In this document: in pieces, positions 2,452 through 23,700 of the stretch
Numbering within the stretch: the stretch's first letter is position 1
Layout of the letters: each line of letters starts with the position of its first letter
IMG/VR virus record: IMGVR_UViG_3300044955_000033
Location: 1 to 40,238 of that record
Length of the DNA stretch: 40,238 bases
Source: a virus
Strand: one strand, 5' to 3'
Notes under the pieces: model-generated
The model's input: the letters and a program-made list of their open reading frames with translations, nothing else
Database searches by the model: none
What the model was told of the DNA's origin: nothing
Made by a program: the position numbers and the translations under genes

Positions 2452-4254
2452 ATGACAGTTAAAGTAACAAAGCCAGCCATTAACCTGCGTGAGAAGCTAA
2501 GTGAGCTGGAGAGTAATAACAAGGATGAGGCTCGTATTGGGTCTTTAGAGTCCGACAGTATTGATGTTGGTACGCTAGAGGTTGATACGATTTCTAGTGA
2601 TGTAGCGGTAAGTGGAGACATCAACTTCGGAGACAACGACAAAGCCATCTTCGGTGCTGGCAGTGATTTGCAGATTTATCACACTGGTTATGATTCATTA
2701 ATTGATGACGTTGGCGATGGTAGATTAAAAATACGAAGTAATGGTTTAGGCGTAGATTTACAGTCTACAACTGGCGAAGTAATGTTAAGAGCATTAACAG
2801 ATTCAAGTGTATCTCTTTACTACGACAACTCAGCCAAACTAGCCACAACCTCCACAGGCATTGATGTAACTGGCACAGCTACGATGGATGGGCTGACGGT
2901 TGATACTACAGCCTCCAACGGAGTAACAATTAATGCTTCTGATAACTTAACTACCAACTATCCTTTAAAAGTACAGAATGCGTCTGGCTCTGGTCGGCTT
3001 GAGCTAAGTACATACGGAATCAACAATAACATTGACCTAAAGTTACAAACTCAAGGTACTAATGCTATTTATATTGATACCAATAAAGACATCAGCTTCT
3101 ACGAGGACACTGGCACAACGGCTAAGTTCTTCTGGGATGCTTCTGTTGAGTCTTTGGGAATTGGTACTACGGATATTGATACGTGGAGCCCATATTGGCA
3201 CGCACTACAGGTGGGCACTGGCTCATCTTTGGTGGGTGCTTCTGGGGTGACTTCTCGTACATTCTTATCTGATAATGCTTACAATAATGGTAGTAACCAA
3301 TCTACATCTTGGAAATATTCTAGTACAAACGAGGCTTCTCAATATACTCAGTTAGACGGCACTCATGTATTTCGCACTGCATCATCTGGCACAGCAGATA
3401 CAGCTATTACTTGGACAGATGCAGTAACAATAAATAACAGCGGTAAAGTAGGTATTGGTACTAGTAGTCCTACTTCTAATTTAGAAATACACGATCGTAC
3501 AGATAAGACGATGACAGCTACTGCCGCTGGGCAGCTAGAAATACAAGGTGACGGCTACGGTTTTGGTATCGCTTTAGGTGCAGATGGCGCTGCTCTATAT
3601 AACAACTCCTCTTCACGGGCTTTAATGTTCGGTACTAATGAGACTGAACGTATGCGTATTGACGGCAGCGGTACCTTGCTTGTGGGTACTACTTCTTATC
3701 CTTATACTGCTGGTAACAGCGGAGTTATGATATATGATGCTTCTGACTGGTATGGGCGGATTAACTTAGGCAAATCTCTTAGTGGTAGTGTTTGGGGTCT
3801 ACGTTGTTACCACAATGGCTCTGGTGTTGGCGGTATTATGTATGGCGATACCTCTACATCCTTTAACACCTCTTCAGACTACCGCCTAAAAGAAGATTGG
3901 CAACCTGTAGCTAACGCATCAGACCGTGTAGCACAACTTAAACCAGTAAACTTTGCATGGAAAGCATCAGGTGAACGTGTAGACGGTTTCTTAGCGCATG
4001 AGCTTGCTGAAGTAATCCCAGAAGCAGTTACTGGCACTAAAGATGCTATGCGTACTGAAGAGTATGAAGTATCTCCTGCTGTGCTGGATGATGAAGGCAA
4101 CGTAGTTACTGAAGCGGTAATGGATACTCGTGAAGTTCCAGACTATCAAGGTATTGACCAGTCTAAACTTGTACCTCTATTGACTGCGGCACTGCAAGAA
4201 GCATTAACTGAAATTGATAATCTTAAAGCTCGCTTAGATGCGGCAGGACTATAA
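2452..4254 (+). CDS. Tail fibre/spike with C-terminal S74 chaperone-peptidase domain
   Basis: 600 residues, two bases after the previous stop. The N-terminus (about 1-60) looks like a short coiled-coil adaptor. The body is repetitive beta structure rich in Gly/Ser/Thr/Asp, with phrases such as DLQIYHTGYDSLIDD and TERMRIDGSGTLLVGTT that are common in phage fibres. From about residue 470 comes the intramolecular chaperone auto-processing (peptidase S74) domain: SSDYRLKEDW, with Ser475 next to Asp476 as the likely self-cleavage serine, then VNFAWK and DGFLAHELAEVIPEAV, ending in a coiled coil (EIDNLKARL). In the family this domain directs trimer folding and is then released. It is the second fibre after the lectin-like one, suggesting a branched or dual receptor-binding apparatus. 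Confidence 0.88.
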   Translation: MTVKVTKPAINLREKLSELESNNKDEARIGSLESDSIDVGTLEVDTISSDVAVSGDINFGDNDKAIFGAGSDLQIYHTGYDSLIDDVGDGRLKIRSNGLGVDLQSTTGEVMLRALTDSSVSLYYDNSAKLATTSTGIDVTGTATMDGLTVDTTASNGVTINASDNLTTNYPLKVQNASGSGRLELSTYGINNNIDLKLQTQGTNAIYIDTNKDISFYEDTGTTAKFFWDASVESLGIGTTDIDTWSPYWHALQVGTGSSLVGASGVTSRTFLSDNAYNNGSNQSTSWKYSSTNEASQYTQLDGTHVFRTASSGTADTAITWTDAVTINNSGKVGIGTSSPTSNLEIHDRTDKTMTATAAGQLEIQGDGYGFGIALGADGAALYNNSSSRALMFGTNETERMRIDGSGTLLVGTTSYPYTAGNSGVMIYDASDWYGRINLGKSLSGSVWGLRCYHNGSGVGGIMYGDTSTSFNTSSDYRLKEDWQPVANASDRVAQLKPVNFAWKASGERVDGFLAHELAEVIPEAVTGTKDAMRTEEYEVSPAVLDDEGNVVTEAVMDTREVPDYQGIDQSKLVPLLTAALQEALTEIDNLKARLDAAGL

Positions 4255-5706: not shown

Positions 5707-6083
5707 CTTGGACAGCTAAATATTTCAGTGAATCAGAGATGGCCTGCCAGTGTGGTTGTGGTGAATCTCCTATGGATCAAGCGTTCATGGATAAACTAGA
5801 TGCGCTACGTGAAGCATATGGTAAGCCTATGCGTATTACGTCTGGCTACCGTTGCCCAGAACACCCTATCGAAGCTAAGAAGTCTAAACCCGGTGCACAC
5901 GCTTCGGCTAAAGCCTGTGATATCGGTGTCGATCGTGCTGAAGCACATGAGATTATGCGCCTAGCATTTGAGATGGGTTTTAAGCGAATCGGTGTTAACC
6001 AGAAAGGTGGCGCACGTTTTATTCACTTGGATACAGCTACCGCTGAAGATGGTTTCCCAGAACCAACAGTGTGGTCTTACTAA
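5703..6083 (+). CDS. Endolysin, peptidase M15 (D-Ala-D-Ala carboxypeptidase-like)
   Basis: 126 residues. The M15 zinc site is complete: His66 and Asp73 in GAHASAKACDI (family SxHxxGxAxD) and His108 in RFIHLD. The substrate-pocket segment ITSGYRCPEHP is also typical. The protein should cut peptidoglycan stem peptides or cross-links. An unusual N-terminal CQCGC cluster (Cys15, 17, 19) is seen in several phage and bacterial M15 proteins. There is no signal peptide, so release would depend on the holin encoded immediately upstream (four-base overlap). The stop overlaps the next start (TAATG). Confidence 0.9.
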   Translation: MTWTAKYFSESEMACQCGCGESPMDQAFMDKLDALREAYGKPMRITSGYRCPEHPIEAKKSKPGAHASAKACDIGVDRAEAHEIMRLAFEMGFKRIGVNQKGGARFIHLDTATAEDGFPEPTVWSY

Positions 6084-6292
6084 TGCGTAAAGTAATAGAG
6101 GCACGAGAGGTAGACGGCAACGTCGAACCGACTCATACGGTAGAAGCGTTCTGTGCAGCTTGTGGGTTTGACCTAGATGAAACAGAACTAGCAGCAGACA
6201 CTTGCTCTGACTGCGGTGAACCCCTAAACTTACGTAAGAACGTAGCCATTCAGGTAACTACGTTACCGTCAGCGTTTGGCGAAACTATGTAG
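6083..6292 (+). CDS. Small zinc-ribbon protein
   Basis: 69 residues from the ATG at 6083 (TAATG with the endolysin stop); an upstream in-frame ATG at 6071 is inside the endolysin and less likely. Two CxxC knuckles (CAAC and CSDC, 20 residues apart) make a zinc ribbon. The rest (IQVTTLPSAFGETM) gives no family clue. The position between lysis and tail genes does not suggest a function. Confidence 0.7.
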   Translation: MRKVIEAREVDGNVEPTHTVEAFCAACGFDLDETELAADTCSDCGEPLNLRKNVAIQVTTLPSAFGETM

Positions 6293-6300
6293 GTGACTGT

Positions 6301-8169
6301 ATGCCCCTAAAGAAACTTGTATTTAAGCCGGGAATTAACCGCGAAGTAACACGTTACACTAACGAAGCTGGTTGGTACGAGTGCGATAAAGTACGTTTCC
6401 GACAGGGGTTTCCAGAGAAGATGGGTGGTTGGGAGCCAATCTCAGTAGGCCAATATCAAGGCGTCTGCCGATCTCTCTGGAACTGGGTTACTCTAGGTAG
6501 TATCAACCTTATTGGCGTTGGTACACACCTCAAGTTCTATTTGGAACAAGGTGGTGGCTATAATGACATTACACCTATCCGTGAAACCACGTCTGCCGGC
6601 GATGTTACGTTCTCTGCAACTGCTGGTAGTACTACTATTACTGTTACCGACGCTGGTCACGGTGCGCGTATTAACGACTTTGTTACTTTTTCTGGGGCTA
6701 CTAGCCTCGGTGGTGACATCACTGACCTTGTTCTAAATAAAGAATATCAGATCACAGTAGTCGTAGACGACGATACATACCGTATAGAAGCCGCTGTACC
6801 TGCTACAGCTTCAGATACTGGCAACGGTGGTGCATCTGTTGTGGGTGAGTACCAGATTCGTACTGGTGAAGCCTACGAAGTCCCGCTTACTGGTTGGGGC
6901 GGTGGTACATGGGGTGCCGGTCTATGGGGTACAGGCGGTGCATCTACTGAGGCTATCCGTTTATGGAGCCAGTCTAACTTCGGTGAAGACTTAGTATTCG
7001 GCCCGCGGGGTGGTGATCTCTACTACTGGGATGCTACTGCTGGCGTATCTACCCGTGCAGTAGCCGTACAAGACCTAGCTGGTGCATCGGATGTACCTAT
7101 CCAACAGAACCTTATCCTAGTATCTGACATTAACCGATTTGTATTCGCTTTCGGTACTAACGATGTTGGTACAGCTACAGTCGACCCAATGCTTATTCGC
7201 TGGTCAGATCAGGAAGACGTTACTAACTGGACACCTGCATCTACTAACCAAGCAGGGTCGATTCGACTATCACGTGGTACCGAGATTGTATCTGCACGTC
7301 AGGCTCGTCAGGAAGTACTCGTTTGGACTAACTCATCGCTGTACTCACTACAGTACGTAGGTGCTCCGGGCGTATGGGGCGCACAGCTAGTCGGTGATAA
7401 CATCTCAATCGTGTCTCAGAACAGTGTTGCATATGCTAACGGTATTGCGTACTGGATGGGTACAGACAAGTTCTACATGTATGACGGTCGAGTGCAGACG
7501 CTACCATGTGCAGTACGTAAGTTCGTATTTAACGACATAAACACCCTACAGTTTGACCAGTGTTTCGCTGGTACTAACGAAGCCTTCCACGAAGTGTGGT
7601 GGTTCTATTGTTCAGAAGATAGTGAATCTGTCGATCGTTATGTGATTTACAACTACGTAGACAACGTGTGGTACTACGGCACCATGGATCGTACTGCTTG
7701 GTTGGATTCAGGCTTACGTGATTACCCGCTTGCGGCTACGTACAATAACAACCTAGTAAACCAAGAGTTCGGCTGTTGTGATAACACCGATGGTACTCCA
7801 GTACCGATGCACTCCTACATACTATCTGGCGAGTTCGATATAGAAGATGGCGACCACTTCATGTTGATTAACCGTATCATGCCGGATATATCGTTTGAAG
7901 GATCTACTGCTACCGCACCCACTGTCGATATGACGCTCTACCCACTAGCTAATTCTGGTTCTGGGTACAATAACCCTATGTCGGAAGGCGGTAATGCTGG
8001 TGGTGCAGTAGCTCGTAGCGCGACTATCCCTGTTGAACAGTACACAGGGCAGGTAAATACACGAGTACGAGGTCGGCAAATGTCTATAAAGGTTGAGTCT
8101 AATAGTGACGGCATCCAATGGCAGCTAGGTTCTCCTCGCGTAGATATGCGACCAGACGGACGTAGATAA
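6301..8169 (+). CDS. Tail protein, P22 gp10-like (beta-propeller tail hub/nozzle)
   Basis: 622 residues, beginning 8 bases after the previous stop with AGGTGA upstream. The opening phrases (KPGINREVTRYTNEAGWYECDKVRFRQG split over residues 10-37, then EKMGGWEP) are typical of the packaged-DNA stabilisation/tail proteins related to P22 gp10 in podoviruses. An inserted Ig-like or beta domain (about 95-185, TSAGDVTFSATAGSTTITVT) interrupts the propeller. Blades rich in Trp/Gly follow (LTGWGGGTWGAGLWGTGG, VLVWTNSSLYSLQYVG, GIAYWMGTDKFYMYDG). In the family these proteins close the portal and connect to the fibres. The homology call is by eye. Confidence 0.72.
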   Translation: MPLKKLVFKPGINREVTRYTNEAGWYECDKVRFRQGFPEKMGGWEPISVGQYQGVCRSLWNWVTLGSINLIGVGTHLKFYLEQGGGYNDITPIRETTSAGDVTFSATAGSTTITVTDAGHGARINDFVTFSGATSLGGDITDLVLNKEYQITVVVDDDTYRIEAAVPATASDTGNGGASVVGEYQIRTGEAYEVPLTGWGGGTWGAGLWGTGGASTEAIRLWSQSNFGEDLVFGPRGGDLYYWDATAGVSTRAVAVQDLAGASDVPIQQNLILVSDINRFVFAFGTNDVGTATVDPMLIRWSDQEDVTNWTPASTNQAGSIRLSRGTEIVSARQARQEVLVWTNSSLYSLQYVGAPGVWGAQLVGDNISIVSQNSVAYANGIAYWMGTDKFYMYDGRVQTLPCAVRKFVFNDINTLQFDQCFAGTNEAFHEVWWFYCSEDSESVDRYVIYNYVDNVWYYGTMDRTAWLDSGLRDYPLAATYNNNLVNQEFGCCDNTDGTPVPMHSYILSGEFDIEDGDHFMLINRIMPDISFEGSTATAPTVDMTLYPLANSGSGYNNPMSEGGNAGGAVARSATIPVEQYTGQVNTRVRGRQMSIKVESNSDGIQWQLGSPRVDMRPDGRR

Positions 8170-8786
8170 TGGCTAACAATATAGAGAAGCCTCAACCACC
8201 AGCGTTACCACTAGCGCGTGAGCAGTACGATAGACGAGATACAGACGAGACTAACAACATTCTACGTCTGTTCTTCAACCGTCTAACCAATGCTCTTAAC
8301 ACGTTATTGAATACGAATGACGGTGGTAAAGTACTCTATATGCCACGTGGCTTGTTCTACAGCACCGCTGACCAGACTGCCGCAGCTACAAATACCGGAT
8401 ACCCTGTAGAGTTCGAGAACGCTTATATCGATAACGGTGTGAGCATCATAGATGATACGAAGATTACTGTGACTGCAGGTGGTATGTATAACTTTCAAGT
8501 TACGATGCAGACAAAATCTACTAACTCGTCGGATACTACGGTCTGGACATGGATCAACAAGTCAGGCACCGATGTTCCCTACGGCGGTCAAATACAGACA
8601 GTTAAGGGTCAAGATGACCACGCTGTTTATTGGAACTTCTCAATTGACCTAGAAGCCGGTGATTACATTGAAATGTACTGGGCTACTGACAACACAGCAT
8701 TACAACTTTACACAGAAGCCGCTACGTCACCTCATCCCGGTATACCGTCTACGATTGTTGCTGTTTCTTTCATAAGCAACTTGTAG
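8169..8786 (+). CDS. C1q/TNF-like jelly-roll virion protein
   Basis: 205 residues, coupled by TAATG. An N-terminal helical part (TDETNNILRLFFNRLTNALN) probably mediates trimerisation or attachment. From about residue 60 there is a C1q-like jelly roll: GLFYSTADQTAAATNTGYPV, then GMYNFQVTMQ, YWNFSIDLEAGDYIEMYW and STIVAVSFI. The same fold recurs in phage decoration and fibre-tip proteins. It directly follows the tail hub gene, so it may decorate the tail or head-tail joint. The 40 bases after its stop hold a -10 box and a hairpin serving the next gene. Confidence 0.7.
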   Translation: MANNIEKPQPPALPLAREQYDRRDTDETNNILRLFFNRLTNALNTLLNTNDGGKVLYMPRGLFYSTADQTAAATNTGYPVEFENAYIDNGVSIIDDTKITVTAGGMYNFQVTMQTKSTNSSDTTVWTWINKSGTDVPYGGQIQTVKGQDDHAVYWNFSIDLEAGDYIEMYWATDNTALQLYTEAATSPHPGIPSTIVAVSFISNL

Positions 8787-8826: not shown

Positions 8827-9126
8827 ATGGAATTTCTAGAAGTATTTAACGCTGTTGCAGAATCCTGCAAAGCGATCCCACGTGAGTATGTACCTGCAAA
8901 GTCATACGACGACCCCATCAACGAAGACACCCTAAACTTAGATAGTCTTGATATCACGCTTACCTTCGCAACGCTAAGTGATGTGTACCAAATACCAGAA
9001 GAGCTAGAGAACAGCTGGCCTACAGAATCTGTAGGTGCATTACGCGACTTTATAGAAGCCAATAAAGCTGTAGACCCTACTGATGAGTACCCAACAGGAA
9101 AAGCGGTAGCGAGGGCGTTCAAATGA
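8827..9126 (+). CDS. Acyl carrier protein-like protein
   Basis: 99 residues, acidic. The 4'-phosphopantetheine attachment motif is intact: L-N-L-D-S-L-D-I with Ser40 in DSL, placed after a first helix and an acidic loop, as in bacterial ACPs. The following helix (DITLTFATLSDVYQIPEELE) matches recognition helix II, and VGALRDFIEANK the last helix. It is longer than the usual ~77 residues, with extra residues at the C-terminus. No phosphopantetheinyl transferase is seen here, so a host enzyme would have to convert apo- to holo-ACP. The gene overlaps the ketosynthase start by ATGA and has a strong AAAGGAG site plus its own -10 box. An acyl-carrier role alongside the next gene is a strong inference; the acyl chain is unknown. 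Confidence 0.8.
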   Translation: MEFLEVFNAVAESCKAIPREYVPAKSYDDPINEDTLNLDSLDITLTFATLSDVYQIPEELENSWPTESVGALRDFIEANKAVDPTDEYPTGKAVARAFK

Positions 9127-10235
9127 TTTATTTATCTATGATGGACAAAATCAGCACCGAAACTCCTAGGGTGGTAGCTGATGGGGCGTTCCCACAACGT
9201 GCACACATTATCGAATCTTCGCTTCGTAGGCTCAAAGCCGGGCTTGGTACGCCGGCTCACAGGCTCGTAGACAGCATAGCTGATTCGGTAGATGAGTATG
9301 TAAACGATAACCCAGTCAAACGAGCTGGGTTAATTCTCGCTGGGGGCACGCAAACGTGGAACGCTAACCAGTGTAAATACGGACAGGATACTAATGCCGA
9401 ACTGTACTACGCAGTAAAGAGCCCTATGTTAGGACTTACAAATGTTTACGCTGGGCGTCTGGCCGCTAGATTCGGAGCACATGACCACGTAGCTACAGAT
9501 GCTAGCGCGTGTGCTTCTAGCCTTAAAGTGCTTATGGATGTGAAGAACCTCATCGAGAACTACGACTTTGACCGAGTTATTGTAGTAGCCGGTGAGGAGA
9601 GCGTGAACGCCGTTATACTGGACCTGTTCGGGGATCTTGGAGTAAGTATGCAGCTGAAGGAAGAAGAGGAAACGGGCAATAAGCCTTCGGCCTTTGACTC
9701 CACCAACCACGGCTTCTACTTAGGACAAGGCGCCGCTATTGCGGTATTCGAACGTGCTGATGTGTGTAAAACTGAGCCGCTTGCTAAACTGGTAGGTGCG
9801 TACTCTGCTTCTGAGAACTATGCCAACGCCCTAGGCCAACGCGATGATGGTGACGGATTCGTTAAAGCTATAGAAGGTGTATTAAGGGTAGCAAAAGTAG
9901 ATAGAAGTGAAGTAAACTTGGTTAAAACGCATGGTACTGGCACGCCAGTTAACAATGCTGCGGAAAAAACAGCCTTACAAAAATGCCTGCCTGAGTTTAT
10001 AGCAACGTCTTATAAACCTCGCATAGGTCATACTGTGGGCGTAAGCGGCTTGTTGGAGACTGGATTGTTGTTAGACGCACTCAATGAAGGCTATGTACCT
10101 GAGATACCGAACCGTACAGAAACGGATTCGGTGTTTTTGTCTGCGCGCGCTCCAGCCCCTGATGGTATGTTTCTTAGTCTAGCTGCAGGTATGGGTAACA
10201 TTTACTCTGCCGCACTGTTCTCTCGTGAGGTGTAA
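9123..10235 (+). CDS. Beta-ketoacyl-ACP synthase-like condensing enzyme (KAS I/II fold)
   Basis: 370 residues. The thiolase-fold Cys-His-His triad is intact: Cys130 in DASACASS, His270 in KTHGTGTPVNNAAE and His303 in KPRIGHTVGVSG, with Lys298 at the conserved lysine position. GQGAAIAVFE matches the family's GEGAG strand. It should catalyse decarboxylative Claisen condensation of acyl and malonyl thioesters on ACP. Departures from FabF: about 40 residues shorter, a degenerate N-terminal part, and the C-terminal GFGGTN loop replaced by AGMGN, so chain-length or substrate gating may differ. Translational coupling to the ACP (ATGA) makes a two-gene module. No reductase, dehydratase, malonyl transferase or thioesterase gene accompanies it, so it would have to feed into the host pathway or form one condensation product. 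Confidence 0.85.
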   Translation: MIYLSMMDKISTETPRVVADGAFPQRAHIIESSLRRLKAGLGTPAHRLVDSIADSVDEYVNDNPVKRAGLILAGGTQTWNANQCKYGQDTNAELYYAVKSPMLGLTNVYAGRLAARFGAHDHVATDASACASSLKVLMDVKNLIENYDFDRVIVVAGEESVNAVILDLFGDLGVSMQLKEEEETGNKPSAFDSTNHGFYLGQGAAIAVFERADVCKTEPLAKLVGAYSASENYANALGQRDDGDGFVKAIEGVLRVAKVDRSEVNLVKTHGTGTPVNNAAEKTALQKCLPEFIATSYKPRIGHTVGVSGLLETGLLLDALNEGYVPEIPNRTETDSVFLSARAPAPDGMFLSLAAGMGNIYSAALFSREV

Positions 10236-10237
10236 TC

Positions 10238-10720
10238 ATGGAAACAGTAGACAGCAAACAGAAACAACTACCCCCACAAGAAATCATAGCCATGGCGGCA
10301 ACACAGCAGGATCTACCCAATGTGAGTGGTATGGAAAACCTTACCCCCGCTGCAGCGATGCTAGCAATAGCTAATGAAAGTTCGTTTGGTACATTTAATA
10401 TGAAGCAGTTTGGCAATACGTTGTTTTTGTACCATAGAGGTACTGGTAAGCACGGAAAGCAGATAAACATGCGCCCTATTAATGTAGATACCGCAGCTAA
10501 TTTCGCTAATAACGTCGTAGCATTTATGCGTGCAGCACACAAAGAAGGTATACGACAGATCCAAGGTAAATTCCGCTATGTACCCTATGTAAACTTATTC
10601 AAGCTCATGGCTCGTCGCATACGGGCAATGCCGAATAACAACGACGTAGCATTCCGTATAGCTAAAACCGAATCCGGTGCGTATGTAGTACAGGGTGTCC
10701 TCGGGGAGGGTTTCAAGTAA
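10238..10720 (+). CDS. Hypothetical protein between the ketosynthase and internal virion genes
   Basis: 160 residues, two bases after the ketosynthase stop, with GAGGTG as ribosome-binding site. The N-terminal third is polar and probably flexible (DSKQKQLPPQEIIAMAATQQ). The rest is mixed alpha/beta: SFGTFNMKQFGNTLFLYHRG, NFANNVVAFMRAAHKEGIRQ, VNLFKLMARRIRAMP and ESGAYVVQGVLG. Proteins with a similar FGTFN...A-x-x-F-x-x-A-x-x-x-G pattern lie just before internal virion genes in other marine podoviruses, so a structural role is more likely than a lipid-synthesis one. A distant GNAT-like fold is possible but no acetyl-CoA motif is visible. Confidence 0.65.
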   Translation: METVDSKQKQLPPQEIIAMAATQQDLPNVSGMENLTPAAAMLAIANESSFGTFNMKQFGNTLFLYHRGTGKHGKQINMRPINVDTAANFANNVVAFMRAAHKEGIRQIQGKFRYVPYVNLFKLMARRIRAMPNNNDVAFRIAKTESGAYVVQGVLGEGFK

Positions 10721-13700
10721 ATGTCAATAATCATTGAGCCAGTAAAAGACCTCATTGATGACGCCTTTGATATAATCGAAGATGTTGGTGAGTCCATTAT
10801 CGATGGTGTCGAGTGGATAGCCGATGAGATAGTCGAACCTGTCTTTGACGCAACAGTCGATGTTGTCCAAGCTGCTCTCGATGATCCGATTAAAACCATA
10901 GCCCAAGTAGCTGCTGTAGCAACCGGTAACGCTTGGGCTTTACCTCTTATTGCGGGCGCAGACGTTGCCTTAGCTGGAGGTGACTTCGGTGATATTGCCA
11001 CGGCTATGGCCGTATCCTACGTTGCTGGTGAAGCTGGCGAGTTCGTAGGTGAATATGCTGGCGAATACGTAGGTGACGCACTTGCTGGTACGGATCTAGG
11101 TAACTACCTTAACGAAGTTGCCGTTGCTTTGGAGTACGGCACTGACATTGGTTCTGCACAGACTGCACAGATAGTAGCCCAAGATGTAGGGATTAACGCC
11201 TTGTCTACCGCTATTGGCGATATGGTGGGCGCATCTTTAGGTAGTGCTACTACTGCTACTATTCTTGGTGGTGATCCACTAAGCGCCGCTACTATGGCAG
11301 CTATTAACAGCAGTACTAAGTACGTTATGGACAAAGTTGGTAATACCAACACCACGTACAGCAACCTAGGACAACCTACACAGGATGTAATCAAGTCTAG
11401 CGTATCTACTGTACTATCCGGTGGCGACCTTACTAACGTCGCTTTGGATGCAGCTACAAACTACGCGTCTTCGCTAACCAATGCCGTATCTAATATGGCT
11501 ACGGATTTCGGTCTAAACGAGCAACAAAAAGCTATTGCGGCTTCGGTTCTCTCTAACGCGTACGCCACAGCGTTTAAAGGTGGTGACGTCTCAGCAGCTA
11601 TCGACACTACGTTCGCACAGATAGGCACGCAAGAGCTTGGTGACAAGATCAAAGAATTCGGTACTAAAACGTATGAGGACATTAAAACCGCATACGATAA
11701 GGCCACTACCGCTGCGGATGAGTTCAACACCACTAAGGATGAACTAGCGATTGTACAGGGCGATTACCAAGACTTTATTGATAGGGTTAACGGTGAAGTA
11801 GCGAAGGGTCAGGAATACACAGAAACAGCGCAGAAAGCTGGTGAAACCTACACTACTAAGTACAACGAAGTTGTAAAACTCCAAGAAGCCGCTAATAAGG
11901 CTATCGATAAGTTCAACGCTGACCGTACTAGCCAAGCGAATTACGATGCAGCTAATGCAGCTATCGACAAGTTCAATAAAGCCAACGACGCATTGCCGAC
12001 GTATATGGAAGCCTACGAAAAAGCGGCCAAGACGGCAAACGACTATAATTCTGCACTACAAGGCAAATTTGACGAAGGTGGCGACTACACTAAAACCATC
12101 TCGGCTTACGAAACAAATATCAACAAACTGCTAGATACTGCAGCTGACCAGAAAGAGATATACGAGAACTACAACACGTTGTTCGAGAACTCCTTCGATA
12201 TCCTTAACACGTTTACGCAAGAATCTACGAAAGTAGCGCAGCAGAGCATTGTCGACGTAATGACCGAAGACGGGTTCGACGCTGAATACTACGCTGATAA
12301 GGTCGGTGTTACTAAGGACGAGGCTGTACAGCACTACCTAGAAGTTGGTCAGTACGCCGATGTACCAGTAAACGCTGAGATCGAAACCTCTGCATACCTA
12401 CAAGACCTAGACTTGTTCGTTAACCAAGCTGCACAGGCTGCGGGTGTTAACCTTACTACGCTACCTCCAGAAGCGGTTAAAGAGATAGTCAACAATATCG
12501 GTCAGAACTACGACTCCTCTTTAGCGTTACAGAACGCTATGAAGGCTGGTGATTACGGTAACGTGACTACTGCTATACAGCAGCTAGCGCCAGATACTTC
12601 TGACTATGCTGGTTTAGTTAAAAACGCATCAGTAGGTCTAAGCGATGGTGTTACATACACTGACATTGTTAAAGACCCAAATAATTACTACGTAGGTGTG
12701 TCGGAAGACGGTGAAAGCCTAGTATACAAGCCGCTAGATGCACACTCTTACAAATCCTACAACGCCGAAACCGGTACTAACGGGGTTACAGGTGTATTCG
12801 ATTCTGACGGTAACGGCACACTGGTCTGGGGTTTTGAAGATACAAACCCAGATACGGGCGAACTCACTATACTAGTAACCGGCACTAAAGACGGTGATCT
12901 ACCTATCTACGCTGCAGGTATTGGTTCTGTAGATGCCTCGCTTATCTATGACTTTATCGGTAACGCTATTAGAGAGCAGAACCCGCTTAACGAGATAGCC
13001 AATGCAGTAGATTACATCTGGGAAGACCTTGGAGTTGGTGAGAAAGCCTCTGAACTTGTTAACAGCGCACTAGATTGGGCTGAAGAGACTGGCCAAGACC
13101 CCGAGACATCCGACTGGCTACGTGACACTCTTGGTGTAGTTATCGCTGGTGGCGGTGAACTGTTCGATGCGTATGTCACAGCGTTCGACGTGCTATCTGA
13201 CGAAGGTGCATCTGACGGTGCCAAGGCTCTTGCAGAACGTATGGTTAAGTTGGGTGGTGATATCCACTCTGACCAATATAAAGAGAACCTAGCGGAACTT
13301 AACGAGATTATGGGTCAGGGCGTAGATCCTGATGCACCATGGTACGAGCAGGTTGCACAGCAGGCGTCTAACGTATTTGAAGCTATCGGCGAACACCCGA
13401 CTACATTCCTAGCTGAGTTCGTGGCTACAGAACTTGTTCAGGAACTACCTACTGTTCTTACATTCGGTGCAGGTAAAGTACTCACTGTCGGGGCTAAATC
13501 GGTAGGTTACGCAGATGACGTAGCTAAATGGCTTGGTCGCACAGGTACACTCGCTGCTGAAACTGTGGCTGAATCGGCTGAAGCCTTCGGTGCTACATAC
13601 GGCGGCGCATACGACCAGATCAAGAACGAAGCACTTAACATGGGTTACTCTCTCGAAGAGGCTAACCAGCTAGCAGAAGATGGCGCTATACAATCTGCAT

Positions 13701-16633
13701 GGATTGCTACCGGCGCTGCACTAGCAGCTCAAGGTGTTGGTGGTCTAGAGATCGAGAAACTTATCCTAGATAAGAAAATCCCATCTAAGACCTATGCTTC
13801 TATCTGGGATAACCTAGGTAAAGACGCTAAACAGATCATATCTGCAAGCGGTAAAGAATCCATCGCAGAAGCTCTAGAAGAAGGCTTTGTCGAGTACACT
13901 ACTGGTACATACATTCAGGATAAGGTTAACCCTGATTACAACATCATTGAGGGTACTACTACTTCGGCACTGCTAGGCGGTATTGCAGGTGGCACAGTTT
14001 CTGGCACGGTCGGCACTATCTTCGGTGGTGCACAATACCTAGGCGAAGCATCAGACGTATCGTTCACTGACAACATCCTGAAGCAGTACTCAACTACTTA
14101 CGCTGCCGATATTGATGCGGCAGTAGCTACTGGCAACGTAGCAGATGTAACCAAGGTTCTAAAAGACTATGGCATTACAGACACTGCTACCCAAGTAGCC
14201 GTAACGAACAAGTACTACGACGCGACTACGCAGACACTAGGCGAAGTGCAGGCTACGGCAGCTGCCGATTTCGATTATTTCGATTTCAGCGGTACTGACC
14301 TTAACGCTTACACAGGTACTGGCAAAACAGATGCTAATACAGTTAGTAGCCTAGAAACTTACGTAGACCCACTGTACACAGACGTTAACGAAGTTAAAGC
14401 CGAAGCCCTAAAACAGGGTCAGGTGCTAACAGACGAGCAGGCACAGCAGTATGTAGGTCAGACTAAAGAGACCACTACGCTCAAGACAGTTAACTCGGAT
14501 GCAGATAAAGCAGTTACTACGCAAGATGAAGCCGCGGATATGTTCGCAGCTCTTGGTTACAACGTAACTAAAGAAGAGTTAGCAGCGTACCCTACGCTAC
14601 AACAATTGCAGTCCGGTGCTAATGCGCAGTCTGAAGCCGATATCAAGCAATATATAGATGCCTACGCCGCAGATCGTATGTTTACATACGACGAAGCTAA
14701 ACAGGCTCTGCTAGATGCTGGCTACGTGAACCCTACTGATGAACAGATTAACCAGTTCGTAGGTCAGGCTAACGATGCAATGTTCCAAGCTAACCAAGAG
14801 AAAGCGCTTGGTGAGTGGTACGACAAGGCAACTACTACTGAAGCTGAAGCTAAACAGTACTTCGCAGATCTCGGTTACGTACCTTCTGAGCAGGAGCTAG
14901 CGCAGTTTGTAGGTCAGGGTGATGACACCTTCGATTCTACTAACAAGACGAACCTCGGTGTATATGTAGATCCACGCCAGACTACTGAACAAGAAGCTGC
15001 GGCTATGTTTGAGGCTGCTAATGGTTACAAACCTACAGCAGAAGAGCTAGCACAATTCACAGGTCAGGGCGGTCAGAACTTCCAGACCGAAACAGGTACA
15101 GCAGTAAGCCAGTACGTAGACCCACGTCAGGTAACTTACGAAGAAGCACAACAACTATTTGCAGACGCTAACGGCTACGTACCTACCGAAGCTGAGTTGG
15201 AACAGTTTATTGGTCAGGGTGGCGAGAACTTCCAGACAACTACTGGTACGCAGTTAGGTGAGTATGTAGACCCACGTCAGGTTACTTATGACGAAGCTGT
15301 TGAAATGTTTAAGGCATACACCGGTTTCGACTACACACCTACACCGGAAGAACTGCAAGCGTTTGTAGGTCAAGGCGGTGCCGATTTCACTACAGGTCAG
15401 CAGACTGGTATAGACCAGTACATTGACGACAACAGTGTTACTGGCGAAGAAGTTGTAGAGTACGTTAAGTCTCTAGGCTACCAGCTACCCGATAACGTGA
15501 ACCTAGATTACCTAGGCGGTCAGTTCGCGGAAAACACTCTGCCGGATGTTATTACAGATAACCAAGGTGCTATGACGTACAACCTGCTGTCGGCAACGAT
15601 GGAAGGTTACGCAGCACAAGGCGCAGCAGCAGACGAAGCTCTACAGAAGAGTATCGACGACGTTGCAGCCGATCTTGGTACAACGAAGGAAGAACTACTT
15701 ACCGCTCTCGGCGAGACTGAGCAGAGCCTACTTGATAAGATGGCGGCTGGTAACGAAGCTCTGGCTACCCAGATCGGCGAAGTAGAAACAGCTCTTTCTG
15801 CAGACATCGCAGACGTCGCAACAGCTCTAGGTACTACAGAAGAGAACTTAACCGCCGCTATCGGTGATGTAGCCACACAACTTGGTACTACAGAGCAGAA
15901 CCTGCTCGATGCTATGGCTACTGGTGATCAGAACGTCATCGACACAGTAAATAACACCATAGCTAATACAGAAGCAGCTCTATCTGCAGATATCCAAACT
16001 GTAGCTGATACGTTAGGTATCCCACCACAGACGGTTACACAGAATGATATTGATCTAGTCTCTAACTGGTTGAGCGGTACACAACCTGAAACGTGGTCTG
16101 ACTACCAGCTTGGTTATGACGTGGATGGCGACGGTCAGATTACGCAAGCCGACCTAGAACTTATCCAAGGTAAGGACATCGCTGCGCTAGCAGAGGCTGC
16201 TCCAGATTCACGCTATGGCAACATGCAGACTATGTTCGGTTACAACGAGCAGATTGCAGCAGACCAAGCGTACCAGAACCAGATGTTGCAAGAACAACAG
16301 CAGCAGATGGAAGAAAACATCCAACAGCAGATGCAAGAAAATCTGAATACTCAGATGCAGCAGAATCAGCAGTTGGCTACACAAACACAACAGATGTCTA
16401 ACATCGGCGACCTGTACCAAATGCTTATGGGTGCTGAGGACATTTCTGGACAACAAGTTAGCGTAAGGGCATCAGATCCTGCTAGAATCAACTATATGTA
16501 CGATTTCAGCAGTATATTTGCTAATCCACAACAGGCGGGACTATTTGCTAGTCCTTATGGAGTGTACGCTGAAGGTGGTAAAGTCGAATCGGATGATGAC
16601 GACGAACTATACAGATTATTGGGAGCACAATAA
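10721..16633 (+). CDS. Giant internal virion (ejection-type) protein, 1970 residues
   Basis: It starts at once after the previous stop with GGGGAGGG upstream. Order of parts: an acidic N-terminal region (VKDLIDDAFDIIEDVGESI); hydrophobic Ala/Gly-rich segments (AQVAAVATGNAWALPLIAG); long coiled coils around 310-500; a module at about 957-1104 ending in a glycine-zipper membrane-like helix (TTSALLGGIAGGTVSGTVG); about eight repeats with FVGQGG ends (1222-1603); heptads with LGTTEENL repeats (about 1640-1770); an EF-hand/dockerin-like loop DVDGDGQITQAD at 1800-1811; a Gln-rich coil; and a C-terminal tail ending near YAEGGKV. Size, repeats, membrane-like helices and position before other internal proteins suggest a DNA-ejection or internal core protein like the large T7-type internal proteins. 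No enzyme motif was seen. Calcium binding is plausible from the loop only. Confidence 0.75.
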   Translation: MSIIIEPVKDLIDDAFDIIEDVGESIIDGVEWIADEIVEPVFDATVDVVQAALDDPIKTIAQVAAVATGNAWALPLIAGADVALAGGDFGDIATAMAVSYVAGEAGEFVGEYAGEYVGDALAGTDLGNYLNEVAVALEYGTDIGSAQTAQIVAQDVGINALSTAIGDMVGASLGSATTATILGGDPLSAATMAAINSSTKYVMDKVGNTNTTYSNLGQPTQDVIKSSVSTVLSGGDLTNVALDAATNYASSLTNAVSNMATDFGLNEQQKAIAASVLSNAYATAFKGGDVSAAIDTTFAQIGTQELGDKIKEFGTKTYEDIKTAYDKATTAADEFNTTKDELAIVQGDYQDFIDRVNGEVAKGQEYTETAQKAGETYTTKYNEVVKLQEAANKAIDKFNADRTSQANYDAANAAIDKFNKANDALPTYMEAYEKAAKTANDYNSALQGKFDEGGDYTKTISAYETNINKLLDTAADQKEIYENYNTLFENSFDILNTFTQESTKVAQQSIVDVMTEDGFDAEYYADKVGVTKDEAVQHYLEVGQYADVPVNAEIETSAYLQDLDLFVNQAAQAAGVNLTTLPPEAVKEIVNNIGQNYDSSLALQNAMKAGDYGNVTTAIQQLAPDTSDYAGLVKNASVGLSDGVTYTDIVKDPNNYYVGVSEDGESLVYKPLDAHSYKSYNAETGTNGVTGVFDSDGNGTLVWGFEDTNPDTGELTILVTGTKDGDLPIYAAGIGSVDASLIYDFIGNAIREQNPLNEIANAVDYIWEDLGVGEKASELVNSALDWAEETGQDPETSDWLRDTLGVVIAGGGELFDAYVTAFDVLSDEGASDGAKALAERMVKLGGDIHSDQYKENLAELNEIMGQGVDPDAPWYEQVAQQASNVFEAIGEHPTTFLAEFVATELVQELPTVLTFGAGKVLTVGAKSVGYADDVAKWLGRTGTLAAETVAESAEAFGATYGGAYDQIKNEALNMGYSLEEANQLAEDGAIQSAWIATGAALAAQGVGGLEIEKLILDKKIPSKTYASIWDNLGKDAKQIISASGKESIAEALEEGFVEYTTGTYIQDKVNPDYNIIEGTTTSALLGGIAGGTVSGTVGTIFGGAQYLGEASDVSFTDNILKQYSTTYAADIDAAVATGNVADVTKVLKDYGITDTATQVAVTNKYYDATTQTLGEVQATAAADFDYFDFSGTDLNAYTGTGKTDANTVSSLETYVDPLYTDVNEVKAEALKQGQVLTDEQAQQYVGQTKETTTLKTVNSDADKAVTTQDEAADMFAALGYNVTKEELAAYPTLQQLQSGANAQSEADIKQYIDAYAADRMFTYDEAKQALLDAGYVNPTDEQINQFVGQANDAMFQANQEKALGEWYDKATTTEAEAKQYFADLGYVPSEQELAQFVGQGDDTFDSTNKTNLGVYVDPRQTTEQEAAAMFEAANGYKPTAEELAQFTGQGGQNFQTETGTAVSQYVDPRQVTYEEAQQLFADANGYVPTEAELEQFIGQGGENFQTTTGTQLGEYVDPRQVTYDEAVEMFKAYTGFDYTPTPEELQAFVGQGGADFTTGQQTGIDQYIDDNSVTGEEVVEYVKSLGYQLPDNVNLDYLGGQFAENTLPDVITDNQGAMTYNLLSATMEGYAAQGAAADEALQKSIDDVAADLGTTKEELLTALGETEQSLLDKMAAGNEALATQIGEVETALSADIADVATALGTTEENLTAAIGDVATQLGTTEQNLLDAMATGDQNVIDTVNNTIANTEAALSADIQTVADTLGIPPQTVTQNDIDLVSNWLSGTQPETWSDYQLGYDVDGDGQITQADLELIQGKDIAALAEAAPDSRYGNMQTMFGYNEQIAADQAYQNQMLQEQQQQMEENIQQQMQENLNTQMQQNQQLATQTQQMSNIGDLYQMLMGAEDISGQQVSVRASDPARINYMYDFSSIFANPQQAGLFASPYGVYAEGGKVESDDDDELYRLLGAQ
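14385..15530 (+). repeat. About eight tandem protein repeats ending FVGQGG
   Basis: In-frame units of about 40-55 residues share the pattern E-E-A-x-x-x-F-x-x-x-G-Y-x-P-T-x-x-E-L-x-x-F-x-G-Q. Clear copies include AKQYFADLGYVPSEQELAQF, AQQLFADANGYVPTEAELEQ and AVEMFKAYTGFDYTPTPEEL. Adjacent units often share YVDPRQVTY between repeats. Divergence grows toward both ends of the array, consistent with internal tandem duplication. Confidence 0.8.
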
Positions 16634-17792: not shown

Positions 17793-18662
17793 ATGGCTGA
17801 TACAATTACAGACACTTCAACTGCATTAGATGGCCTAACCGGCGATGCTGGGCAGGTTACAGGTTCAGAATCATCTCTTTCTAACTGGGCTGGTGACTAC
17901 GTTACTGACATGCTTGGCCGTGGCTGGGCAATGGCAGATGAAGGCTACCAAGCCTATGAAGGCCCACTAACTGCGGGTGAATCGACCCTGCAGGGTCAGG
18001 CGTTTTCTGGTCTAGCTAACCTAACTATTCCTACTGGGCAGCAGACTACTTTTGATCAGCAGTCTTTCACCGATCCGGGTGTTGCCCAGCAGTACATGAA
18101 CCCTTATGTAAATGCAGCATTGCAGCCTCAGCTAGATGAGCTACGTCGTCAGGCGCAGATCTCTCGCGTTAATCAGGCTGGTCAGCTAACTAAAGCTGGT
18201 GCTTACGGAGGTTCTCGTCAGGCTCTTGCCGATGCCGAATTGACTAGGGGTATGCTAGCTAACATGGCCGGTGTAACAGGTCAGGGCTACCGCGACGCTT
18301 ACAACCAAGCACAGCAGCAGTTCAACGCAGAACAGAACCTAGGTCTACAGGGTGCACAGAACGCACAGCAGTATGGTCTAGCGGCTCTAGCAGCTCAGGG
18401 AGCTGGCGGTGCGCAGCAGCGTGATATTGAACAGCAGGGTATGACGGCTGATCTACAGCAGTTTAACGAAGAGCGCGACTTCCCATACAAGCAGGTGCAG
18501 TACATGCAGTCGCTACTTCAGGGTCTACCTCTTGCAGCGCAGAGCTACAGCTACTCGCAGCCTAGTACACTTTCTAACCTACTTAGCAGTGCTGGTGGTG
18601 TGGCTGATCTGTATGACACTATCTTTGGTGGTACTAGCGATACTTCTGGAGGCGAAGCATGA
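17793..18662 (+). CDS. Internal virion/DNA-transfer-like protein
   Basis: 289 residues, rich in Gln/Ala. The centre has the recurring marine-podovirus signature QQYMNPYVNAALQPQLDELR followed by NQAGQLTKAGAYGGSRQALA and GQGYRDAYNQAQQQFNAEQN, a long helical segment. The C-terminus (SNLLSSAGGVADLYDTIFGG) is a small Gly-rich helix. In related phages proteins with this signature lie among internal virion genes and are treated as ejection or internal core proteins. It overlaps the next start (ATGA). The role is inferred from that pattern and the operon. Confidence 0.7.
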   Translation: MADTITDTSTALDGLTGDAGQVTGSESSLSNWAGDYVTDMLGRGWAMADEGYQAYEGPLTAGESTLQGQAFSGLANLTIPTGQQTTFDQQSFTDPGVAQQYMNPYVNAALQPQLDELRRQAQISRVNQAGQLTKAGAYGGSRQALADAELTRGMLANMAGVTGQGYRDAYNQAQQQFNAEQNLGLQGAQNAQQYGLAALAAQGAGGAQQRDIEQQGMTADLQQFNEERDFPYKQVQYMQSLLQGLPLAAQSYSYSQPSTLSNLLSSAGGVADLYDTIFGGTSDTSGGEA

Positions 18663-20714: not shown

Positions 20715-23700
20715 ATGGCACAGTATTCGGTAGTCGCTTCTGACGGTAAGACATATACACTAGACTCAGTAGAGGGTCTAACCAAGGAGCAGGCTAAGGC
20801 CGTAGTTGAGGGTAAGCTGCAAGCACAGCAAAGCCGAGACGCTATCGAATATGCCAAGAACTACGACGAGTACACTCCAGTAGTCGATGACCTAGAAGAG
20901 CTGATCAAAGGTGTTCCACGTGGTGCCGTTAATATCGGTGAGCTTGCGGCTCTAGGTATCTCAGAAGGTCTAGGCGCAGACGAAGAAACTCGCCAGTCTA
21001 TTAAAGACGTAGCCGAATCGGCTCGTAGCCCATTCGCTGCTGATACTGGTCCGGGTGGTGATACCGTTGGTGGTATGATCGGTGAAGGTCTAGGTTCTAT
21101 GGTTCCTATGGCGGCTATGGCTCTTACTGGCCCCGTAGGTTTTGGTGCCGCCGCTGCTACTGGTATAGCCGCTGGCGCTGGTGAAGCTACAGAACGTGCA
21201 CGTGCTGCTGGCGCATCTGAAGAAGACATCGATACTGCTGGCCTATCTGGTGCGGCTATCGGTGCAACTGAGATGTTGCCTATCTTCCGATTCCTCAATC
21301 GCGGTGGTAAGGAAATTGCCCAGAACTTCGCTGACAAAGTTTGGCGTTACGTTGGCTCTGCTACAGAAGAAGGTGTACAGGAAGCCGCAGCTGCTATGGC
21401 ACAAAACATGGTCGAGCAGCAGGTATACAACCCAGACGCAGATATCCTAAACCTAGACGTTGCTGCAGAAGGTGGTGTCGGCGCTACTGTCGGTGCTATC
21501 ACTCAGGGTCTTGTCGATTTAGCGATGCGTGGTAAACGTCGTGGTCTAACGGCGGGCGAAGAACCTACTCCAGAAACTGAAGAAGAGCGTAACGCTAGGA
21601 TTCAGACTCGTATAGGCGATAAAGCTAGTCGCTTGGGTGTAGACCGTGAAGACGGTCAAATGGATATGTTCGGACTATCCGATGCCATGGGCCCAGAAGC
21701 TCCTGCACGTGCAGAAGAAGAGTTAGTAGACGAAGAGCCTACACCTGAAGGCTTACCTATCGATGACCTATTCCCTGAGACGTTAGAGCAAGATATCGAT
21801 TCACCATTCCGTACACCATTCGGTGAGTTCGGTGAGCGCAATATCCCTGCAGATAAGCAGCTGTCTATTGTAGAAGATCAGACAACACCAGAAGAACTAC
21901 TAGACCCAGAGCTACGTCGATACAAAGCCGCTGCACGCCAAAAGCAGTTAGAAGCTAAATCGGCTACGGATGAGAAGCCTAAGAACGAAGTAGAGGCTCG
22001 TAAAGAAGAGACTCAGGCGCAGCTAGATGAAGCTGTGGATACTAAGAAGGCCCAGCTCGAAGCTATTATGGGTATGCAAGCGCAGGACCAAGCGCAGGCA
22101 GCTAGAGATGTACAGGCAGCTAACATGCAGATGCAGGGGCGTAGTGAGCCTCAAATGGATCTCTTCCCAGAGACACGCACTGCTCAACCAGCGCAGCAGC
22201 CGAAAGCCGAAACCCCTACTAGGGAAGAAGCCAAGCCAGACCCACGACAAGGTGACTTGTTAACAGGTCGTGCTGGACAACTACCAAACGTACCAGCCAC
22301 GCAATTCGACACTGTAGAGCCTCAAGAGTTGTTAGATCCACGTATGCGTGCGGCTAAGTTAGCTGCCCAACGTAAACAACAAGAAGCTGGCCCTGCGGCA
22401 CGTATGGCAGAGCGCCGTGCGGCCCAACAGCAACAGGAAGCTCAACAGCGTTCAGCACAACAAGCTGAAGCATACAGAGGTCAACAGGCAACTGAGCAAG
22501 GTAGAGCGGCGCAAATGGCGCAAGATACCGGCACTCCGCAGCCTGATATGTTTGGTGGGGTACGTGGTCAAGTTACGCCAGAGCCTGCAGCGCAGACAGC
22601 TACGACACCGCGTGTCATAACTAAAGAAATGCTGGACAACGCACGTATCCTACCAGCCGCACCAATCCGTAAACGCGTTACTGGTAAAGACATCAATGAT
22701 CCAGCGGTACAACAGGATCTACGTAACTTTGCTAACAATAAGTCTGTCTCTGCTACAGCTAAAGCAGGCGTTAATAAACTGTTGCAAGATGCGCAACAGC
22801 AAGGTGATCTGTTCGAACAACCAAAACGCCAACCTAAACCTGAAGTTGTACAAGAACCTGTACAGGAGGTTAAAGATGGAACAGCCGAAACTAAGCCTAC
22901 CCGAGTTCGAGCTAGCTCTACAGATCGCGGACGAAGCGATGAGCAGCGAGGAAGAACACCTAGTGCTAGACCTGCCGGAAAGCCTAGAGCACCTGAACGC
23001 AAACGATTGGCGGAAGATAAGCCGGTTCCTAGTAAGCCTGCAAGAAGAGCAGTACGAGTCGACGATACACTAGAGCAGAAGCCTGCTCCTAAACGTATTA
23101 CTAAGCCGAAAGCTAAGAAAGAAGAAAAGCCTAAAGCTAAGTACGGTCGTGTAGCCTCTGGTGTTACTAACTGGAAAGATCGTGAACCTACTAAACCCCG
23201 TTATGTGTTCCGCCAAGCAGAGAGCATGGTGCCGTATGACCCACGTTTTGACGTTAAGAATAAACCGAAGCGTGACAAGGTAGCGGCAGAAGAGCGTGTA
23301 GAGCGTGCAGATGTTAGTGGTACTTATGGTGAACAGCGTTCACAGCTACGTGTTCTATTGGCACCAAAGGGCACACTAGATGTAAACCCAGCTCTTGAGA
23401 ACCATGAGGTTACAGATAACCTGCCAGAGTCAGATAACGCTGCGATCATATCTGTTATTAAGAACACACGTGATCCGGGCGCTAAAAAGACTAACGAGGC
23501 ATGGGCTGCACGTAATTACTTCGTAAACTCTAAACATGACCGCTTCATCGATAACCTAGTTTTGTTGGGCTACGACCTCGCCAACGGTACAGCTAAGACT
23601 AAGAGCGTATATAACTGGGTGTCTAAGAACCTAAGCCCAGAAGCTAAGGCTATCGTCGATAAGTGGACTAAGCGTTTCGATGCTGAGAACAAGCACGCTG

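Follow-up and report, generated by a model that had tools for sequence, protein, structure and literature searches.

Genes of fatty-acid synthesis have been reported from several phages. A fabG-acpP-fabF trio has been reported in three prophages (PMC8224337); its genes are arranged as in the usual host operon of E. coli. Phage genes for an acyl carrier protein (ACP) without a ketosynthase (KS) have been interpreted as lipid AMGs in Alteromonas phage R22Y (PMC11705849) and Vibrio phage R16F (PMC10152775), and fabF/fabH genes have been reported from rumen viral contigs (PMC5704599). In cobaviruses, a GNAT gene (pc40) adjoins the internal virion genes and has been likened to T7 gp13 (PMC6775973). 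Among bacterial enzymes, the RtxC family, to which HlyC belongs, fatty-acylates lysine with acyl-ACP as the donor, and the structure of ApxIC, a GNAT-fold toxin acyltransferase, is without CoA-binding elements (PMC8339906).

We analysed a linear IMG/VR virus record of 40,238 bases (the whole stretch is referred to below as the window), in which genes for an ACP, a KS and a predicted GNAT-fold protein, here called X, follow one another. The parts of this cassette are of known kinds, while their combination and placement are new; our search of the open-access literature, with subscription papers and preprints outside its scope, found no description of an ACP-KS-GNAT-fold cassette. The fabG-acpP-fabF genes of Rhodobacteraceae prophages (PMC8224337) were considered as the same cassette and rejected, as their arrangement is different and is that of the host operon.

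Gene order around the cassette

The features of the cassette and its neighbours are collected in Table 1. A first-pass annotation, made from the sequence alone, had described an ACP with Ser40 in DSL, coupled by ATGA to a condensing enzyme and placed between tail and internal virion genes. Both reading frames were recovered exactly where it had put them, sharing the ATGA overlap, with a ribosome-binding site (AAAGGAG) preceding the ACP gene, and the described placement also holds. The pair is therefore real, but the same annotation had missed X as a member of the cassette.

Table 1. Cassette genes and neighbouring virion genes in the window
Feature	Position	Strand	Evidence
P22 gp10-like virion (head-closure) protein	6301..8169	+	phrog_3287, 2.6e-71
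Minor-tail-like protein, directly 5' of ACP	8169..8786	+	phrog_746, 1.1e-4
ACP, 99 aa	8827..9126	+	Phosphopantetheine site Ser40 in D-S-L-D; family alignment and family profile
KS, 370 aa, KAS I/II type	9123..10235	+	Pfam KS domains, FabF-like model, invariant residues, own clade
Protein X, 160 aa, predicted GNAT-fold acyltransferase-like, third cassette gene	10238..10720	+	Conserved directly after KS; model and structural matches
Large virion or ejection-type protein, 1970 aa, directly 3' of X	10721..16633	+	Position
DNA-ejection-protein-like	17793..18662	+	phrog_4287, 1.4e-5

Tail-fibre genes, a GTA-type holin gene (PF11351) and an M15 peptidase endolysin gene lie farther 5' and are followed by those for the gp10-like and minor-tail-like proteins, while 3' of the ACP-KS pair come X, the 1970-aa protein and more virion-type proteins, one of them the DNA-ejection match. 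These neighbours recur in the related loci: a homologue of the gp10-like protein is a conserved upstream neighbour in 137 of about 150 loci, relatives of the minor-tail-like protein occur in 92, and the cluster of the DNA-ejection-protein-like gene is present in 126. In phages that carry X only, the gene that comes after X is of the same type as that for the 1970-aa protein. The order in the window matches that of P22 (gp10, gp26, gp14, gp7, gp20, gp16) and that of T7, where gp13 precedes gp14-16, so that X occupies the place of P22 gp14 or T7 gp13. The 1970-aa protein and the DNA-ejection-protein-like product are candidate acylation targets.

Three other genes of the window were also recorded. 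A small four-cysteine zinc-ribbon-like protein (CAACG...CSDCG; 6071-6292), with relatives in 33 loci, is encoded just 5' of the gp10-like gene. A 107-aa protein (2126-2449), whose N-terminus is lipobox-like (LVGC) and which has HEVMHCFSGDWH, resembles a small zinc-metallopeptidase lipoprotein and has no Pfam match. The virion block is closed by a 2231-aa protein (20715-27410), likewise with no Pfam match.

Identity of the three proteins

As a single sequence, the window ACP matched neither a Pfam nor a PHROG family. In an alignment of 40 diverse relatives, the motif D39-S40-(L/M)41-D42 was kept in every member; a profile of this 40-member family retrieved nothing but ACPs from the PDB (best E 7e-6), and 15 of the 40 relatives matched PF00550 at E<=0.1, the best at 2e-4. 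By these alignment and profile comparisons, the gene encodes a genuine ACP with an intact Ser40.

The KS matched two Pfam domains (PF02801, 1.9e-16; PF00109, 9.2e-11), both above the cut-offs and far beyond chance. Cys130 lies in DASACASS, His270 in HGTGT and His303 in KPRIGHT, and AGMGN occupies positions 355-359. These three catalytic residues had been noted as intact, and together with Lys298 and Glu312 they show no variation in 40 of 40 diverse members with a median pairwise identity of 57%. Structure prediction, which had been proposed as a check of the fold, yielded a model (pLDDT 91.6, pTM 0.92) that confirmed a FabF-like fold, with Z 43 across 358 residues against KAS II proteins, S. 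pneumoniae FabF among the matches. Judged from sequence and model, the KS is a KAS I/II-type condensing enzyme of the thiolase superfamily with the FabF fold, for which condensation activity is predicted.

The first-pass annotation had also argued against a plain replacement of FabF, and our results agree with it. The KS scored 107.9 against the FabF equivalog TIGR03150, far below the cut-off of 493.75, and the change to AGMGN is invariant in the family. The gate motif of FabF is GFGG (PMC7138838); AGMG is invariant at this position, where FabF and FabB have GFGG, and the flanking Asn changes to Leu and Tyr/Phe. Residue by residue, FabF Phe400 corresponds to the invariant Met357, Gly402 to Asn359, Asn404 to Tyr/Phe361, and Asp265 to the invariant Glu231. 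Because the equivalents of Phe400, Asn404 and Asp265 are replaced together, the gate loop is, as far as the alignment tells, rebuilt in a coordinated way.

In a phylogenetic tree with 16 cellular KSs, a very long branch with 100% SH-aLRT support set apart the phage KSs together with one very divergent KS (L084), the placement of which is unsure. The best cellular matches, found on plasmids, were about 27-31% identical to the phage KS. The phage KSs thus constitute, by sequence comparison, an old clade of their own, approximately 30% identical to cellular KSs, and are no recent host gene. The L084 gene (7881-8783) encodes a 300-aa KS (ANACASA, HGTGT, GHS, SGLGN) adjoining a lysozyme-type gene on a Sulfurospirillum MAG contig, and no ACP or X was found among its neighbours.

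A sequence-based family search with X gave no match. Its model (pLDDT 91, pTM 0.84) shows the order alpha-alpha-beta-beta-beta-alpha-beta-alpha-beta-beta, and all of its best 50 VIA-align matches were GNAT proteins, with Z from 11.0 to 9.4; unmatched models give a background of Z 7-8, above which the Z of 11 lies. The best E in Foldseek was 1.3e-4. The best structural matches were mostly ordinary N-acetyltransferases, and those from Foldseek included acyl-homoserine-lactone synthases such as TofI, and also BjaI and MesI. On the strength of the model, a GNAT acyltransferase fold is predicted with confidence for X. Its beta4-alpha3 turn reads N-x-D84-T-x-x-N88 in place of the CoA P-loop consensus [QR]xxGx[GA], and X was therefore not filed as an acetyl-CoA GNAT. 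Profile comparison of X with T7 gp13 and P22 gp14, each represented by a single template sequence, gave no match.

We also searched 24 records for enzymes that could serve the cassette. The search, with positive controls in known genomes, detected neither a phosphopantetheinyl transferase nor a malonyl transferase nor a ketoreductase in any of them; the latter two, as co-encoded members of a type II fatty-acid synthase operon, were thus seen in 0 of 24 records. This agrees with the lack of partner enzymes noted in the first-pass annotation. Arming and charging of the phage ACP would fall to enzymes of the host.

Distribution and evolution of the cassette

A scan of IMG/VR with the single KS sequence returned no relatives; alignment-based scans succeeded and revealed KS relatives on at least 563 stretches. 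In profile searches of the fetched loci, 175 had the full ACP-KS-X set. Other sets were X by itself (48 loci), ACP-KS (12), KS-X (2), KS by itself (2) and ACP-X (1). Some of the loci are repeats from the same contig, and the distinct KS sequences number 148. Except in L084, the contig ends upstream of KS wherever a KS locus has no ACP. The ACP gene lies immediately 5' of KS in all intact loci checked but one, and X is placed right behind KS, with the ejection genes next in line. Coupling is tight throughout, by a 4-nt ATGA or GTGA overlap or by genes that nearly touch. Nearly all of the loci belong to a late structural operon.

Two departures from this arrangement were observed. First, a second scan revealed ACP-X without KS on 5 contigs from two lineages; ACP overlaps X directly, with no KS between them (L240, 3712-4459; L243-L247, around 3001-3750), and a search of three of these records, including one of 62 kb, detected no KS. 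Second, in a clade of nine loci (L070, L073, L074, L076-L081), ACP-KS (5708-7104 in L074 and L077) directly follows a SNF2-type helicase gene, and no X was found on these contigs, which are 27.7 kb or shorter.

Absence of the pair in close relatives, with signs of decay, had been named beforehand as a finding that would count against it; instead, relatives carry the pair in intact form. The median dN/dS was 0.052 for KS, 0.095 for ACP and 0.071 for X. These low values, together with the invariant catalytic residues, indicate strong purifying selection rather than decay. On a quick tree of X with modest support values, the KS state required two changes and all three states required three, compared with about 24 for shuffled labels, and the phages with ACP only were nested within those with X only. 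As read from these sequences, the cassette is an old and stable association, and the X tree is compatible with either gain or loss.

Only one annotated phage record carries the full cassette, MW202545.1 (Siphoviridae sp. ctpbd312, Manatee Spring; L001, 17472-21543). It has the same gene order as the window, with a KS that is 51% identical, an ACP that is 29% identical and X present. Its deposited annotation gives '3-oxoacyl-ACP synthase' and two entries of 'hypothetical protein' for the ACP and X homologues, and the cassette is undescribed there. The full cassette was found on a single cellular contig, in a Balneolaceae MAG (L083); since this contig is probably viral, no host is claimed. Other KS matches labelled as phage were rejected as host-gene contamination, namely those from E. 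coli phage 500465-2 and Acinetobacter and, probably, those on unannotated Listeria and Enterococcus contigs: they are 22-29% identical, and in the two contigs that were opened the KS lies amid ordinary host genes.

Possible functions and comparison with known systems

That hundreds of uncultured tailed phages have an intact ACP and KS, mostly with X and the ejection genes alongside, suggests that a fatty-acid-like group is produced and attached while their virions are being assembled. Our leading reading, which we hold tentatively, is that ACP-KS-X is a phage-dedicated acyl-transfer cassette of the late genes, with ejection proteins as its putative targets. A host phosphopantetheinyl transferase would arm Ser40 of the phage ACP, with acyl and malonyl groups coming from host FAS II. 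The KS, whose active site is intact and invariant, would perform one condensation on the phage ACP, giving a particular beta-ketoacyl-ACP, or an acyl-ACP after host reduction. X may then unload the phage ACP and pass its acyl group to a protein amine, a step suggested by its predicted fold, the gene order and the co-occurrence of the genes. Gene order points to the large ejection proteins encoded immediately 3' as the likeliest acceptors, and a lipid tail on them could aid packaging, membrane insertion or pore formation. A fuller version, to which we give somewhat less credence, is that the GNAT-fold transferase, supplied by the phage's own ACP and KS, acylates the ejection proteins before packaging, so that the injected proteins would be lipid-anchored while they build the DNA channel.

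The best hint that the ACP serves X comes from the ACP-X pairs without KS. Three observations count against the acyl-transfer reading: X is common in phages without ACP-KS, so its basic role does not require them, X was not found on the contigs of the clade with ACP-KS beside the helicase gene, and the divergent KS of L084 has neither an ACP nor X beside it. The first-pass annotation had offered three outcomes, namely altered host lipid synthesis, a one-step acyl product, and a packaged modified lipid or acylated protein. Of these, an acylated protein is favoured most by our results, since X, encoded next to the pair, has a predicted acyltransferase-type fold and occurs with ACP in the absence of KS. 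Altered host lipid synthesis is weakened, yet it keeps some support because one clade holds ACP-KS away from the structural block.

An effect on host lipids is the best surviving alternative, although we think it unlikely. The phage ACP and KS would form an auxiliary metabolic module that enters host fatty-acid synthesis and changes membrane lipids during infection, in chain length or in amount, while X would be an unrelated assembly protein similar to T7 gp13 or P22 gp14. The helicase-linked clade is its main support, the 48 loci with X alone are in line with it, and so are the published lipid AMG interpretation of phage ACPs and the fabF/fabH genes of rumen viruses. However, the KS belongs to an old phage clade instead of being a recently acquired host gene, almost every locus has the genes within the late structural operon, and a lipid module centred on KS does not predict ACP-X pairs that lack it.

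Synthesis of a small molecule appears improbable. KS and ACP are the minimal chain-extending pair, and GNAT-fold proteins include signal synthases that use acyl-ACP, and TofI, BjaI and MesI are among the fold matches of X; X could prime or unload the ACP, by GNAT-like loading or LuxI-like release, and yield a short polyketide, a beta-keto acid or an acyl signal. Against this stand the late virion operon context, the predominance of ordinary N-acetyltransferases among the best matches of X, and the finding of no further tailoring enzyme in the 24 records. Less probable still is a non-catalytic use of ACP and KS, in virion assembly or as parts of the virion, since the invariance of Ser40, Cys130, His270, Lys298 and His303 in such diverse members would then be hard to expect, even though both genes are located among virion genes and X-like genes take the place of assembly proteins such as T7 gp13, annotated in Pfam as 'probable scaffold'.

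In podophages, the ejection proteins have to enter the host envelope and reach across it. They are soluble in the capsid, and how they nevertheless enter membranes is an open question, to which a cassette for acyl supply and transfer placed before their genes offers a directly testable answer. If acylation of ejection proteins is correct, the cassette would be a viral system, as yet undescribed, by which a dedicated lipid is made and attached. Phages with X alone, ACP-X, ACP-KS-X and a relocated ACP-KS provide natural comparisons, and the viral ketosynthases found here, whose gate is altered, make up a large clade that had not been annotated.

Compared with known systems, the phage KS shares with FabF and FabB (KAS II and KAS I) the fold, the Cys-His-His site, the conserved Lys and Glu and an ACP partner. 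It differs from them in its low identity (about 18-23% in structural alignment and up to about 30% in sequence), in being approximately 40 residues shorter, and in its gate loop. R22Y, R16F and the Rhodobacteraceae prophages resemble the window in carrying an ACP gene in a phage genome; however, no KS-X cassette has been described in them. T7 gp13 (PF11090), P22 gp14 (PF11039) and the pc40 GNAT of cobaviruses and SIO1 are, like X, small proteins encoded directly before the ejection-protein genes, but none has been reported together with a phage ACP-KS. RtxC/HlyC is similar to X in its GNAT-type fold, which for X is predicted, in the missing CoA P-loop motif, in a carrier protein as the likely donor, and in acting beside genes for membrane-inserting proteins. 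The activity of HlyC is known from the literature, whereas X is known here from its sequence and predicted fold. No sequence relation between the two was detected, and while HlyC takes the ACP of its host, the phage brings its own ACP and KS.
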